A DNA stretch of 42,350 nucleotides from Elusimicrobiaceae bacterium (GTDB taxonomy: Bacteria; Elusimicrobiota; Elusimicrobia; Elusimicrobiales; Elusimicrobiaceae), in NCBI GenBank assembly GCA_017961585.1, contig JAGCWX010000026.1:1-42350 (forward strand). Reading direction: 5' to 3'. Shown here piece after piece: positions 25,547-32,988 of the stretch. The notes under the pieces were generated by a model. That model saw only the letters and a program-made list of their open reading frames with translations, was not told the origin of the DNA and searched no databases. Position 1 is the stretch's first letter. Each line of letters begins with the position of its first letter. The position numbers and the translations under genes are program-made.

Positions 25547-25571
25547 ATAGCAGTTGTATTTGGTGTGGACT

Positions 25572-27809
25572 ATGCAAAAAATTTCCTTCCGCCCTTTTAT
25601 TGTTTTTGCGTTATTGGCTGCCTTGGTGGTGATAGGCGGAGTGGTGGTTTATTGGCAGCAAGTCAACACCTTGCTGGAGCGGGATGTCAAAATCAACATT
25701 GCCCAGGCCAGTGAAGAAGCCGCTTTAAATTTTAGTAACCTCTTAAAAACAGATCGCGAAATTTTAACCGCCAATGCGATTTCCATTGAAGACGCTTACC
25801 CTTGGAAAAACGATTCTTTCTTATCGGAAACGCTGGCGCGCTACGCACAAAACGATCACTTCCACTTATTGGGGGTAGTGCTTAAAAACGGCAAAACCAT
25901 CTATTCCAATCCGGCCACGCGGCCTTTGAGCCCGGCTGTTTTGCAAGCTATTTTACAGCATACTTCTCAAGAACCTTACTACGTTGATATTTTCCCGCGC
26001 GAAAAAGGGAAATATAAATCGGCCATCTTGGTGCAAGCCATTGCGCTCAATCCGACGGATAAAAGCCCGATCGGGGCACTGTTTGCCATTCAAAAAGAGG
26101 ATTACTACCAAGGGGTGTTGGCTCTTTCGGCCATGGGGGCGCGGGGAAATTCTTTCATCATCCGCAAGGACGGCTCGGTCATTCTTTCGTTTGGGGATCA
26201 ACCTTTTTCCAATGTATTTTCGTTCCTGGAGCAAAAAACGTTGGACATTCCGCTCGCGTTTGTGTCTTTGCGTAAAACCATAGAGGCCGATGAACCGGCC
26301 CTGATGGGATACCGGGACATGGCCCAAGCTCACTACTTTTTGCAATTTGTTCCCTTGCCGGTGAATGGGTGGTATTTGGTGTCTTCTATCCCGGCTCATT
26401 ACATAGAAGAACAAGCCACCCAAGTTGCCAAGCTTTCACTGATTTTATTTATTGTGGTGTTCTTTGTGTTTTATGGGTTGATCTTCCTCATTATGCGTAT
26501 GCGCGAAGAAAGCAACCGCCAATTATTTACGATTGCGTTTGTGGACCCGCTAACCGGGGTAGATAATTTCAACCGTATGTGCGAACAATTTAACAGCAAA
26601 TTAGCCGGGTTGAACCGTCAAGCGGTGCTCGTGGTGTTTGACATCAATAAATTCAAAGTCATTAACGATTTGCACGGTTACGAACGGGGTAACGAAGTGC
26701 TCAAACGGGTGGCCCAAGTGTTGCGTGCGGAAGTGGCCCCGCAAGAAGCTTTTTGCCGTTTGTCTGCGGATAATTTTGTGTTGTTGCTAAACTATCAGGA
26801 CCGCCCTTCCCTTTTAAAACGGTTGCATGCACTGGCGGTGGAGCTTAAGCGCAACTGCACGGTGGAAGACTCGTGCTTGATGTTGGATGTTTCTTTTGGT
26901 ATTTATGAAATTACCGATGAGCCGCTGCCTTTTTACATCATGTTGGACCGTGCTCACCTGGCCTTGGAACACGCCAAAACACGCACGCTGGATAAGTGCG
27001 AATTTTACGACGCGCAAGACCGCCGCCGTTTAGTGGCCGAACAGCGTATAGAAGCCACGATGGAAGCCGCCCTGGAGAGCGGCGAATTTGCCATCCACTT
27101 ACAACCCAAGTGTGATTTTGCCACGGGCGAAATCCGCGGTGCGGAAGCTTTGGTGCGTTGGAACCAAGGGGAAAAAACCATCCGTCCGGATGAATTTATC
27201 CCGTTGTTTGAGCGTAACGGTTTTATTTTAAAGCTGGATATGTTTATTTTGGAACAGGTTGCGCGCTTGCTGGCGGGGTGGAAAGAGCGCGGGATTGAAC
27301 CGGTGCCGTTGGCGGTTAATTTCTCGCGTTTGCATTTAAATGATGCCCGCTTTATCCCGCAAATGCGCTGTGTGATGGCTGATTATAATTTGCCCAGCAA
27401 ATTGATTGAGGCCGAAATTACAGAAAGCGTCATCTTTAATAATTTAGACCGCGCCAAAGAAGTAATTGACGGGTTGCACCTGTACGGGTTCCCGGTGGCA
27501 ATGGACGATTTTGGCTCGGGCTATTCTTCATTAAACGTACTTAAAGAACTTAAGTTTGACAGTATCAAATTGGATAAAGAATTCTTGTCTGGGTTTGAAG
27601 ACAATCCGCGTGCTCAAAAAGTAATTGAGCAAACCGTCCGCATGATTAAATCATTGGGCGTTAAAGTAATTACCGAAGGGGTAGAAACCCGCGAACAAGC
27701 GGACTTTTTACGCGCTTGCGGGGCGGATTTGGCGCAGGGGTATTTCTTCTCGCGTCCGGTAACCATAGACGTGTTTGAGCAACTGCTGCTCAAAAGAAAA
27801 TTATTGTAA
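25572..27809 (+). CDS. Membrane c-di-GMP phosphodiesterase (degenerate GGDEF + EAL)
   Basis: A 745-residue protein. Residues 9-30 and about 287-309 are membrane spans that enclose a periplasmic sensor domain of dCACHE-like size. A GGDEF domain (about 325-480) has an intact fold (FVDPLTGVDNFNRM, FDINKFKVINDLHGY), but the signature is SADNF in place of GGDEF, so it should not make c-di-GMP. The EAL domain (about 490-745) keeps the catalytic motifs: RGAEALVRWN, LAVNFSRLHL, EAEITESV, MDDFGSGYSSL, IKLDKEF, ITEGVET and AQGYFFSRP. It probably degrades c-di-GMP in response to a periplasmic signal. Its 3' end overlaps the next gene, on the opposite strand, by 9 bp. Starts at 25554 (TTG) or 25563 (GTG) are less likely. 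Confidence 0.9.
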   Translation: MQKISFRPFIVFALLAALVVIGGVVVYWQQVNTLLERDVKINIAQASEEAALNFSNLLKTDREILTANAISIEDAYPWKNDSFLSETLARYAQNDHFHLLGVVLKNGKTIYSNPATRPLSPAVLQAILQHTSQEPYYVDIFPREKGKYKSAILVQAIALNPTDKSPIGALFAIQKEDYYQGVLALSAMGARGNSFIIRKDGSVILSFGDQPFSNVFSFLEQKTLDIPLAFVSLRKTIEADEPALMGYRDMAQAHYFLQFVPLPVNGWYLVSSIPAHYIEEQATQVAKLSLILFIVVFFVFYGLIFLIMRMREESNRQLFTIAFVDPLTGVDNFNRMCEQFNSKLAGLNRQAVLVVFDINKFKVINDLHGYERGNEVLKRVAQVLRAEVAPQEAFCRLSADNFVLLLNYQDRPSLLKRLHALAVELKRNCTVEDSCLMLDVSFGIYEITDEPLPFYIMLDRAHLALEHAKTRTLDKCEFYDAQDRRRLVAEQRIEATMEAALESGEFAIHLQPKCDFATGEIRGAEALVRWNQGEKTIRPDEFIPLFERNGFILKLDMFILEQVARLLAGWKERGIEPVPLAVNFSRLHLNDARFIPQMRCVMADYNLPSKLIEAEITESVIFNNLDRAKEVIDGLHLYGFPVAMDDFGSGYSSLNVLKELKFDSIKLDKEFLSGFEDNPRAQKVIEQTVRMIKSLGVKVITEGVETREQADFLRACGADLAQGYFFSRPVTIDVFEQLLLKRKLL

Positions 27810-28844
27810 TTTTTGTGCCCGTTTCAAATACTCTTGCGCGGCGTAAGTAAGCCGCTGGGGAAGGGGCATTTTGTTTAAGTAGCGCGGATCCAGCGAGATC
27901 ATTCCGTCAAATCCGGCCCCTTGCAATTGCGTGGCTTGTTGTGAAGTTTCCGGATAGGAGGTCAACGCAATAATTCCACCTTTATAACCATTGTCACGTA
28001 GTGTGCGCGCAATCATATATCCGTTTCCGTCGGCCAAATTGATGTCCGTAAACACAATATCAAAACGAGAATAAGGAACGCCCAATAAAAACTGAGCTAC
28101 CAGGGCCTCTGTATATAACTGTGCATGTGGAAACAAAACCCCCATTTGGGATTGCCTTTCAAACAAGGCCAGGAGCATGACATCGTCATTAATAATAGCA
28201 ATTTTTTTATTCTCTAATTCCGTTAGCGGATTGGGTTTGTTTGAGAGGGAAGGATATAAGAAAAAATCTTCTGGGGTAGCCTTCTTTACATTGAGGGCAG
28301 AAGGATGAAAAGCCGCCGCCACGTGTTCCAGCGCGGGGTTTATAACTTCTATTCCGTGGTTTACAAATTCCAAAGCGTGTATAAGGGCTTTGTCTTGCGG
28401 GGTGGTTTTATATACTTTCCATAGTTTTTGTTGCAAGTCTATGAGTTGGTTGGTTAGTTGCGTTTGTTCAAAGGGATGTAAATCGCGCGCTTCGGTGGGG
28501 ATGGATTGGTAATAGATAAAAGGCCCTTGTTTGGCTTTAAAATCTTCAAATTGGCTCAGGGCCTTGTCGTAATCTTTCAGTAATGCGTTGCGCTGAGGGA
28601 TGCTTAAGTTGGTTTGATTGATAAAAACGGGGGTGGTATGGGGGGTAGCCCTAAAAATAATAGAAGAAGTAGGATGCTTGATGCGTTGCAAACGAGCCAA
28701 ACGCCGCATGTGAGTAGCACTGTTTAGTTTGTAGTGCACTTGTTTGGGAGTGTACAAATGAGCGGGTTTTTTTATTTTAAATTTTTGGGCATTCGCACTT
28801 AAAGCTGTGATTAAGCATAAAGCCAGTAAAATTAGTTTCTTCAT
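27801..28844 (-). CDS. Exported protein with C-terminal receiver-like domain
   Basis: A 347-residue protein with a clear Sec signal peptide (MKKLILLALCLITALSANA). The middle (about 80-200) is helical. Residues 213-347 match a response-regulator receiver domain: KKIAIINDDVML with the acidic pair Asp220/Asp221, FDIVFTDINLADGNGYMIAR with phospho-acceptor Asp267, and IIALTS with the switch Thr/Ser. The conserved Lys of the last motif is missing (SLDP in place of KP). Receiver domains normally work in the cytoplasm, so an exported one is odd; it may bind something other than phosphate or have a dead signalling role. Leaderless start: a -10 (TACACT, 28856-28851) ends 6 nt before the ATG. Confidence 0.75.
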   Translation of the reverse strand: MKKLILLALCLITALSANAQKFKIKKPAHLYTPKQVHYKLNSATHMRRLARLQRIKHPTSSIIFRATPHTTPVFINQTNLSIPQRNALLKDYDKALSQFEDFKAKQGPFIYYQSIPTEARDLHPFEQTQLTNQLIDLQQKLWKVYKTTPQDKALIHALEFVNHGIEVINPALEHVAAAFHPSALNVKKATPEDFFLYPSLSNKPNPLTELENKKIAIINDDVMLLALFERQSQMGVLFPHAQLYTEALVAQFLLGVPYSRFDIVFTDINLADGNGYMIARTLRDNGYKGGIIALTSYPETSQQATQLQGAGFDGMISLDPRYLNKMPLPQRLTYAAQEYLKRAQKLQ

Positions 28845-29605: not shown

Positions 29606-29638
29606 AAAAATCCCCCGGTTTGCCCGGGGGATTTTTTT
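29606..29638. terminator. Bidirectional terminator, pilin / tldE-like
   Basis: AAAAATCCCCCGG (29606-29618) pairs with CCGGGGGATTTTT (29624-29636) and is followed by further T. It serves both convergent genes and overlaps the TldE-like stop. Confidence 0.88.
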
Positions 29639-31298
29639 ACGGTTTTTTGACGAATGGGGGTTTGTCGGGCGTGGCGCGCGAAGGCGTCAGCTCCAACTCT
29701 TCCAGCAGTAAGCTGGGGGCAATGATACTTTGGGATTCTATCAAATCGCTTTGTGTATCAAAGTGGATCACGGCCGGGTTGTCCGCCGCGGCTACAATGT
29801 CGCGCAGGGAGCGCACATTGGGGTTGTTTACTTCCAGCCCGTATACCCATTGATCGGGCTTGCCGGGTTGCGTGTAAACACGCAACGCACGTTGCACGCG
29901 GCCGTTTTTGTCCGTGGGGAAATCGTACAAAATATATCCATATTCCAGCCCCCATTCCCGGCATTTGGCAAGCAGTTGTTCTTTAAGGGCTTGCGCGGTT
30001 TGCGGGTGCTTGGCTTCTACCCACAAGTTGGTAAGCTGTTCGCGCGGCAAGGATAACCCCGGCATCCGGGCGTGCCCGTTGCTGCGCGTGCTGTTTTTAA
30101 ACGGGCGGCTGCTGCGGGGCAAGTCCGTAAGTAAACCGTTTTGGGTCAAGGTTAGCTCGGTTGTTTGGACCCCTTCGTCATCCACGGGGGTGAACCCACC
30201 CAAAGGTTGCCCTTGATAGGTTTGCCACAAAGGTTTATCGTAAAGATCTACCGCGTTGGAAATTACCCGCATGCCTTGTTTTTGCACAAACGTGCCGCCT
30301 TCGCTATCGGGGCCGTTTTGTGTAAGCAGAACGCTGGTATTTTGCACATTGGGCACAAATAGGGCCTGCAAAAAATTCCCGGCGGCTTGCGGGCTTAGTA
30401 GCACCGGGCCCAGGTAGGTATCCCCTTTTACGGCGGTATACATATTTTGCAAATCGGTCAATAATTGGCGCGTGTGAGTTTGCAAGGTTTGCTCAACGGA
30501 TGCAAAATCTTGCACCCATATTTCACGGTCGTACGATTGTTTGTATCCGTCCTTATTGCGTAGTTTGGCAATCCAACGGATGGTAAACATGGGTTGCGCG
30601 TATTGGTAAAATCCGCCCAAGCTATTTAGATAATATGTTTCTTTTTGCAACGGCGTAACGATAATTCTAAATTCTTCCAAGAACGCAAACGCCTTGCCCT
30701 GGGCCGAGGCCGCCTTCACCCAGTTTTGCAAATCCTGCACATTGTAGGGCGGCATGGGGGAAATTTCTTGCACGTACGAAGCTTGCGGCTGCGGGATAAA
30801 ATCCACTTTAGGGGCTTGCTTGTCGGACGTTTTGGTCCGTTTGTAGGATTCTTTTTGCTGATACGTTTCCGAAGCAAATACCGCGGCCTGATCCGTTAAA
30901 TCCCACAAGGTTTGGCGGAGGCCTTCGTAACTTTTTGCCACCCCGCGTTCATACTGCGGCCGGTAGTTATACCGGTTGTTGTATTCGTTGTGACGGTAAC
31001 CTAAACTGTCGTGCTGGGGGGTGCCCATATCCACCCAAGCATACGCGATGAGCAAGGAGTCTGCTTGGTCCTGGGGATATAGCTCCCCTAAAGAGGCAAG
31101 CACCTTGGGTGCATTGGTAAAATTGACCAATTTGTAAGCCACATAAAAAATTTTCGGTGCCCCGGGGATTTTTAATTTTTGAAGCGAGCGGGCCATTTCT
31201 TTTTGCATGGCTTTGAAGTACATATTATCGGGCAATTTTTCTGCCGCTTGCGCCCCTACGGCGCATAACAATAATAAACAAAGTAATATTTTCTTCAT
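29637..31298 (-). CDS. Exported TldE/PmbA-like protein
   Basis: A 553-residue protein with a signal peptide (MKKILLCLLLLCAVGAQA). The C-terminal half has the TldD/PmbA fold pattern (MRVISNAVDLYDKPLWQTY, GFTPVDDEGVQTTELTLTQN, RSNGHARMPGLSLPREQLTN), but no HExxxH, as expected for the non-catalytic TldE half. Start ATG 31298 follows GGAGGG; an in-frame upstream ATG at 31484 lies inside the TldD-like gene and would destroy the signal peptide. It begins just after the TldD-like stop. The classical pair acts in the cytoplasm on microcin and CcdA, so export is unusual. Confidence 0.75.
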   Translation of the reverse strand: MKKILLCLLLLCAVGAQAAEKLPDNMYFKAMQKEMARSLQKLKIPGAPKIFYVAYKLVNFTNAPKVLASLGELYPQDQADSLLIAYAWVDMGTPQHDSLGYRHNEYNNRYNYRPQYERGVAKSYEGLRQTLWDLTDQAAVFASETYQQKESYKRTKTSDKQAPKVDFIPQPQASYVQEISPMPPYNVQDLQNWVKAASAQGKAFAFLEEFRIIVTPLQKETYYLNSLGGFYQYAQPMFTIRWIAKLRNKDGYKQSYDREIWVQDFASVEQTLQTHTRQLLTDLQNMYTAVKGDTYLGPVLLSPQAAGNFLQALFVPNVQNTSVLLTQNGPDSEGGTFVQKQGMRVISNAVDLYDKPLWQTYQGQPLGGFTPVDDEGVQTTELTLTQNGLLTDLPRSSRPFKNSTRSNGHARMPGLSLPREQLTNLWVEAKHPQTAQALKEQLLAKCREWGLEYGYILYDFPTDKNGRVQRALRVYTQPGKPDQWVYGLEVNNPNVRSLRDIVAAADNPAVIHFDTQSDLIESQSIIAPSLLLEELELTPSRATPDKPPFVKKP

Positions 31299-31299
31299 C

Positions 31300-32988
31300 T
31301 TATTTTCCCTCCGCAAACGGGGGTGGCAATACCGGGGGTTTCGTGCCGGACTTGCTTGCCTTCTCCAGTTCCAACCGCCGCAACAATACGCTAGGGGCAA
31401 TGCTGGAAACCGGCACCCAGCCCGATTCCGCCCCGCATTTACCGTTGAAAATTCCATAATCATCTGCCGCTGCCAGCACTTCATGGAAGCTGGCCAACGG
31501 GGTTCCCACCATATCTACGCCGCGGACCACTTCTTTGCGGCCGTCCGGGTAGAGGCGGTAAATCAAAGTAGGGGTGAGTTTGAAGGTTTGCGGCAGGAAG
31601 GTTTCCGTAAGGGTAAATCCGCCGGATAAATCCTCTATAATAATCCCGTAAGGTTTATTTTGTTTTTTGATTTCTTGCAACAATTGTTTTTCCAGCTCGT
31701 CATACGAAACTGTTTGAGAAGCGAGGGTGCGGGTGTTCCCCATACGGGCGACGGGGCGGCTCCATTTATCGCTGCGGCCGTGCCCGTTGGAAGCGGCAAA
31801 CCCTTTAATGGGGCTGGCGTTCATTAAGAAGCCCTTAAAAACGCCGTTTTCCACCAGGGTAACCGGGCGGGCTTTTACTCCTTCGTCGTCGTAGAGGTAA
31901 AATCCGCGTAAAGGGATGTTGTTAAAATAGGGCAGGGTGGCGTCGTCCACAATGGTAAGCAGGGGGGAGACAATCTCTTGCCCTAATTTATCGGTAAACG
32001 TTTTGCCGAAGGAATCTTCTTTTTGGCGGTGGCCTTCCGCACGGTGGCCCAATACCTCGTGCACAAATACGGCCATGGCTTTGTTTTTCAAAATAGCCGG
32101 CACGGTAATGGGTTCCATTTCGGGCGCTTTAGAAAGGGCTTCTAATTCCTGTAAACTTTGCTTTACATCCGCCAGGAGTTGTTCCTCGCTAGGCAGTTCC
32201 TTTTCTTGCAATACGTTATAGTTGTTTAAGCGGGAGATGTTGGTCCCGTCGGCCGTTTTGCCTTCTAAAGAATAACTCAAAGTAACCAAGCGGATGGGGG
32301 TTTTAAGGCGCGTACCTACGGAATCTACAAAGTAGCGGCTGCCCTGTTCAAACGTAAAAATAAACTCACTTTTTAGCACGTAGGGTTTGTTTTGCGCCAG
32401 GGTAGAGGCCTTAAGTAGCAGCTGTTTGATACGTTCCGTATCAAAAACAGCTATGGGGGTATCCTCGCAAAAGGTTTCCCGCGGGGGGAAGGCAAAATCG
32501 GGCGAGTCGTCCGCACGTTCGGAAGCGGTTTGTACGTCGGCCTGTACGCGGGCAAAATCCTGCTGGGCTTTTTCAGCCGCTTCCTGCGTGGCGCGCCAAA
32601 CGGCGGTGGTAAATGCTTGGGTATCCGTGGCAAAATCCGGCAGATAACTGGTGGGTTGTTCGTAATCGGTTTCGTGCTGTTTAAGCGTGCGGGTGTTGTC
32701 CATCTGCGTGCTGCCCGCGCGGGGGAGTACTTTTAACAAAGTATTGTGATAAAGCAGATCCCGCACCACCCCGTTATTTTCTACAACTAAGGTGTAATCA
32801 AGACTGTCCGTATATGTATAAGACATATAATAAATAGGCGGGTTTTGCTTTTTAAGGGTTGGAAAACTACGCTTAAGCTCAGCCGAGAGGAGTTGCACCG
32901 GCTTTTGCTCGTTGATATTACAGGTATTTTGGGCCCAAATGTTGTACGGGAGCCCGGCCAAAATCAGGGAAAAAATTATTTTTTTCAT
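31300..32988 (-). CDS. Exported TldD-like metalloprotease
   Basis: A 562-residue protein with a signal peptide (MKKIIFSLILAGLPYNIWA). The TldD-type zinc motif is HEVLGH (310-315), continuing RAEGHRQ as in the family. Further family blocks: FGKTFTDKLGQEIVSPLLTI, YLYDDEGVKARPVTLVENG, SNGHGRSDKW and RPVARMGNT. The N-terminal domain is less conserved. It should form the catalytic half of a heterodimer with the next gene product and act in the periplasm. Leaderless start: TGC plus TAAAAT (33000-32995) ends 6 nt before the ATG. Confidence 0.8.
   Translation of the reverse strand: MKKIIFSLILAGLPYNIWAQNTCNINEQKPVQLLSAELKRSFPTLKKQNPPIYYMSYTYTDSLDYTLVVENNGVVRDLLYHNTLLKVLPRAGSTQMDNTRTLKQHETDYEQPTSYLPDFATDTQAFTTAVWRATQEAAEKAQQDFARVQADVQTASERADDSPDFAFPPRETFCEDTPIAVFDTERIKQLLLKASTLAQNKPYVLKSEFIFTFEQGSRYFVDSVGTRLKTPIRLVTLSYSLEGKTADGTNISRLNNYNVLQEKELPSEEQLLADVKQSLQELEALSKAPEMEPITVPAILKNKAMAVFVHEVLGHRAEGHRQKEDSFGKTFTDKLGQEIVSPLLTIVDDATLPYFNNIPLRGFYLYDDEGVKARPVTLVENGVFKGFLMNASPIKGFAASNGHGRSDKWSRPVARMGNTRTLASQTVSYDELEKQLLQEIKKQNKPYGIIIEDLSGGFTLTETFLPQTFKLTPTLIYRLYPDGRKEVVRGVDMVGTPLASFHEVLAAADDYGIFNGKCGAESGWVPVSSIAPSVLLRRLELEKASKSGTKPPVLPPPFAEGK

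Follow-up and report, generated by a model that had tools for sequence, protein, structure and literature searches.

An exported pseudo-receiver protein family, by prediction from sequence and models, in uncultured gut Elusimicrobiota

The minus-strand gene at 27801-28844 of the stretch of Elusimicrobiaceae DNA analyzed here (42,350 nucleotides, referred to as the window) encodes a 347-aa protein, which is probably a member of a family of exported pseudo-receivers specific to this lineage. These proteins would not be phosphorylated, would retain a divalent cation in the receiver pocket, and would bind a partner or ligand outside the cytoplasm. The protein combines a signal peptide, a basic tail, a new helical domain, and a C-terminal pseudo-receiver, and has approximately full-length homologues (39-42% identity) in five genomes. 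The organisms are uncultured gut Elusimicrobiota, known from metagenome assemblies.

Receivers are among the most abundant bacterial domains, and are regarded as cytoplasmic phosphate switches. No exported or periplasmic receivers are reported in the literature searched in full text, and exported pseudo-receivers go unmentioned in the pseudo-receiver review PMC12632262, where any receiver that has lost one or more of the five catalytic residues is called a pseudo-receiver (PsR).

Export signal and the N-terminal regions

The open frame at 27801-28844 has only 351 codons, and opens four codons upstream of the ATG, which makes a start further upstream impossible and means that the hydrophobic N-terminus is real, rather than an artefact of start choice. 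This N-terminus (MKKLILLALCLITALSANA/Q, the slash marking cleavage) is built like a Sec/SPase I signal peptide, which covers residues 1-19 (28788-28844, minus strand), and its cleavage is predicted at ANA/Q. When signal peptides were called by a simple home-made n-h-c rule, which called none of 29 cytosolic control proteins, one was predicted in 113 of the 120 homologues, while several of the remaining seven are cut at contig ends or disrupted by stops. The hydrophobic run has a median length of only 12 residues and leads into a conserved AxA/Q site, with Gln at +1 in 84 of the 113 signal-peptide members. On this pattern and its conservation, the family members are predicted to be Sec-exported by means of a cleavable N-terminal signal peptide. 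The original prediction of a Sec signal peptide, on an ORF of this strand and length, is thus borne out; its proviso that Elusimicrobiota homologues should share the signal peptide, the N-terminus being otherwise misjudged, is answered by the same 113 homologues and by the short upstream frame.

The mature N-terminus (residues 20-60; 28665-28787, minus strand) is modelled with low confidence and is basic, with a net charge of +11, and the family mean for the basic stretch after cleavage is +4.8 over 40 residues. So basic a stretch after the point of cleavage is less than ideal for export by Sec, and counts against the main explanation. It is followed by a helical domain of approximately 140 residues (residues 61-203; 28236-28664, minus strand; AlphaFold pLDDT 86.8), for which no fold in the PDB matched at an E-value better than 0.8. 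This domain is present upstream of the receiver in all members, is confined to this family, and never occurs without the receiver, being new and without a known relative. A phosphorelay identity (DHp/Hpt-like) was rejected for it, given the lack of a conserved His and of a fold match.

Receiver fold and active site

The C-terminal domain (residues 206-347; 27804-28229, minus strand) is recognized as a receiver by Pfam, profile search, AlphaFold, and Foldseek. Pfam Response_reg (PF00072) matches residues 250-316 at 30.3 bits, against a cut-off of 30.2, and is also matched by all 34 family members scanned. A search of the PDB with the family profile recovered 52 sequences at E up to 0.001, which are receivers or receiver-containing proteins, save for one designed protein that itself aligns as a receiver. 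The AlphaFold model of the whole protein (mean pLDDT 83.5) places a (beta/alpha)5 domain at residues 214-346, with most blocks at pLDDT 85-96, and the best 50 PDB fold matches retrieved with this model by Foldseek are receiver domains only, with a top TM-score of 0.84. The Ca2+-bound KdpE receiver is among the fold matches. The claim of a C-terminal receiver domain, and the comparison with receiver folds proposed for checking it, are therefore both sustained.

The active site is only partly preserved. Profile alignments with canonical receivers place the acidic pair at N219-D220 (28185-28190, minus strand), so that the pair originally assigned to Asp220/221 is shifted by one, and D221 varies across the family. 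The first position (DD1, N219) is Asn in 107 of 120 members and acidic in none, and the second (DD2, D220), the metal-ligand Asp, is D in 116 of 116. The phospho-acceptor position, D267 (28044-28046, minus strand), is Asp in 120/120, and the switch position, T295 (27960-27962, minus strand), is Ser or Thr in 108/120; the conserved Lys is replaced by Leu at L318 (27891-27893, minus strand), and is found in a single member, being absent from the other 119. The phospho-acceptor, the Thr switch, and the missing Lys of the earlier reading thus stand, while its Asp pair does not. Three further residues (R283, G311, and D313) are as fixed as D220 and D267, whereas most other columns vary, and no conserved His or Cys was found in the family alignment.

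The complete set of five catalytic residues (DD, D, T, K) is therefore lacking family-wide, with Asn at DD1 and Leu in place of Lys, which brings the domain within the definition of a pseudo-receiver. The signal peptide, the lack of an output domain, and the broken active site set these proteins apart from two-component response regulators. As DD2 is the residue in direct contact with the metal, the pattern suggests that the cation site has been retained while the phosphate switch is broken, with the conserved D220 and D267 as ligand residues of a putative cation site in the receiver pocket.

In typical pseudo-receivers, DD1 is non-acidic in approximately 20% of cases and DD2 in approximately 80%, and the phospho-acceptor D is lost in about one third (PMC12632262). 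The exported family reverses this pattern, by keeping D and DD2 and having a non-acidic DD1. It resembles the PsR domains of atypical response regulators in its receiver fold, its sequence homology, and the absence of two of the five residues, but differs from them in its signal peptide, new helical domain, and lack of a DNA-binding or kinase output. With CheY, PhoP, DrrB, and KdpE, it has in common the fold, the phospho-acceptor Asp, the second acidic residue, and the Ser/Thr, although it lacks their Lys, first acidic residue, linked kinase, and output domain, and has gained a signal peptide. According to PMC1974792, the pseudo-receiver of FrzS (Myxococcus xanthus) is likewise a receiver fold that functions without Asp phosphorylation, but it is cytoplasmic, has no phospho-acceptor Asp, and fails to bind Mg2+.

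Distribution and genomic context

A single-protein search gave matches in 49 of the 90 genomes of the same taxonomic family, and the strong matches of a profile search fell in 45 genomes, comprising 43 of the 66 of the window's genus and two of a sister genus; among the 341 genomes of the phylum, the profile search found only ordinary receivers beyond these 45. The 120 distinct members extracted from these matches are the basis of the family counts. No match was found when genome contigs were scanned with the single protein, and an alignment scan of genome contigs recovered 20 loci, 19 of them in Elusimicrobia MAGs or bins matching genus members. A Planctomycetota match and those in genomes G327, G124, and G110 were rejected as family members, as they contain ordinary receivers only, and a phage origin was rejected in view of the lack of matches in phage records.

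In a tree built from the receiver domains alone, the exported members lie on one side of a branch that separates them from 11 canonical receivers with a support of 98, a value that is indicative only, because the alignment columns are few and the branches long. The window gene falls within a subgroup of six members (support 100). The family is under purifying selection, with a median dN/dS of approximately 0.12 over 85 pairs, synonymous changes far exceeding replacements. The window genome (G000) encodes a second member, of 523 aa with a signal peptide, on contig C5.

The homologues often lie in tandem, and many members of 350-430 aa form arrays of one to six genes, flanked by genes for a DUF1646 membrane protein and for NuoE/F-like and hydrogenase-like proteins. 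One six-copy array (L053, G047:C38 7567-13558) has a copy broken by an in-frame TAA. Four of the subgroup of six are still near these flanking genes, whereas the copies in the window and in G036 are not.

The two neighbours of the window gene noted originally are both real. A convergent gene for a dCache-GGDEF-EAL protein (25554-27809, plus strand), with a degenerate GGDEF (SADNF) and an intact EAL, overlaps the end of the pseudo-receiver gene by 9 bp, and the divergent gene encodes a pilin. The EAL gene is near-universal in the genus, whether the exported family is present or absent, and in the genomes carrying the closest relatives (G020, G012, G028, and G033) its orthologues are distant or lie on different contigs, so that a functional pair was rejected, as the adjacency is not conserved. 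A link to the pilin gene was also rejected: the 1.49-Mb window genome has 67 type IV pilin-like N_methyl matches, with which a pilin neighbour is expected by chance, and a pilin flanks seven of 34 loci, four of them orthologous, against approximately 6% per gene. Both neighbours are uninformative.

Elsewhere in the window, two adjacent minus-strand genes (29637-31484 and 31300-32988) encode TldD/PmbA-type metallopeptidase-like proteins, of which the second has an N-terminal signal peptide (MKKIIFSLILAGLPYNIWAQ) and a HEVLGH zinc-type motif, while in the first a signal peptide starts from an internal Met. Relatives of TldD are normally cytoplasmic.

Nine members are giants of approximately 1800-2350 aa, with the pseudo-receiver module at the C-terminus. 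A hydrophobic N-terminal signal is clear in seven of them, and one is truncated where its contig ends. The position of the module at the end of very large signal-peptide proteins suggests that it may have a role in regulating, docking, or anchoring the protein that carries it. The two sister-genus giants (L086, 9112-16164, minus strand, and L140) are signal-peptide proteins of 2350 aa with two trypsin-like domains (Trypsin_2) ahead of the receiver-like domain, and carry an HTD..N / LDYE stretch which, judged from motifs, recalls phosphotransferase kinases. In the giants L078, L085, and L135-L137 (approximately 2150 aa, with the module last), repeated His/Cys motifs (HGYV...HSCQTG, HTRGG...NSCFSG) are reminiscent of caspase-like peptidases; caspase-like domains had only this motif basis, unconfirmed by Pfam and PDB searches, and were rejected.

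Function of the family and its implications

Most likely, these proteins act in the cell envelope or exterior as a binding module that holds a cation and works without phosphorylation. As an ATP-fed kinase would be lacking outside the cytoplasm, the domain would not be switched by phosphorylation. Instead, the pocket may be stabilized by a divalent cation (Ca2+ or Mg2+), held by D220 together with N219 and D267, while the receiver face would serve to bind a ligand or a partner protein, either in the periplasm or on the cell surface. The placement of the protein in the envelope may be due to the helical domain and basic tail, and tandem duplication would yield versions with different partners. 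Both aspartates of the metal/phospho-site being invariant, the pocket itself appears still to matter, most simply as a cation site, although these residues could alternatively be kept for folding. The export of a receiver fold, as originally interpreted, is well supported by its conservation, and the proposal that it may have been recruited to bind a ligand or protein is a compatible one; the idea that no normal kinase serves it agrees with the loss of the Lys and the first acidic residue, and with the lack of a conserved His. The cation site is a reading absent from the original prediction.

It is unlikely that the exported receiver is an inert scaffold, with the helical domain or basic tail doing the work (binding wall, lipid, or pilus, for example) and the aspartates persisting for fold stability. 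The helical domain is indeed as constant in the family as the receiver, and the mature N-terminus is basic, but D220 and D267 are invariant in some 120 members in which most columns vary, and typical pseudo-receivers often lose D or the acidity of DD2, at the rates given above (PMC12632262); the equal fixation of R283, G311, and D313 also counts against it. The phosphorylation of D267, by a phosphodonor at the site of action, such as another cell, or through modification before export, is very improbable: the loss of the Lys, the non-acidic DD1 of every member, and the helical domain's lack of a conserved phosphorelay His stand against it, even though D, DD2, and the Ser/Thr are retained. Sec exports proteins unfolded, and Asp-phosphate is short-lived, which also weighs against it. 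The substitution of DD or K, for its part, need not abolish phosphorylation (PMC12632262).

An uncleaved N-terminal anchor, with the protein facing the cytoplasm, would account for the net charge of +11 behind the hydrophobic stretch, which runs against the positive-inside rule for export, but can hardly be credited in view of the short hydrophobic run with its adjoining AxA/Q, the MKK-type positive N-terminus, and the pairing of the module with trypsin-like domains in giant members. Least credible of all is a partnership with the dCache-GGDEF-EAL protein, in which c-di-GMP turnover would be modulated from the periplasm. While the genes are adjacent in the window, and the G036 member lies head-to-head with a paralogous GGDEF-EAL gene, the dispersed orthologues and the near-universal occurrence of the EAL gene irrespective of the exported family are at odds with it.

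A broader version of the preferred reading, that of an exported cation-binding module, can be put forward only tentatively, and is rather doubtful. The receiver may have been domesticated once, early in the genus or its taxonomic family, as an extracytoplasmic cation-dependent binding switch, which was diversified by tandem duplication and became the C-terminal part of very large secreted proteins, of which some contain protease domains. If true, a receiver would here act as a switch outside the cytoplasm under the control of Ca2+ or a ligand, in place of phosphate.

A conserved, multiplied family outside the cytoplasm that keeps half of the active site would, if the reading is correct, provide a natural test of how the pocket of pseudo-receivers functions when phosphorylation is lacking. 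The uncultured gut Elusimicrobiota would also gain a sizeable group of so far unannotated proteins, predicted to be secreted or to belong to the envelope.
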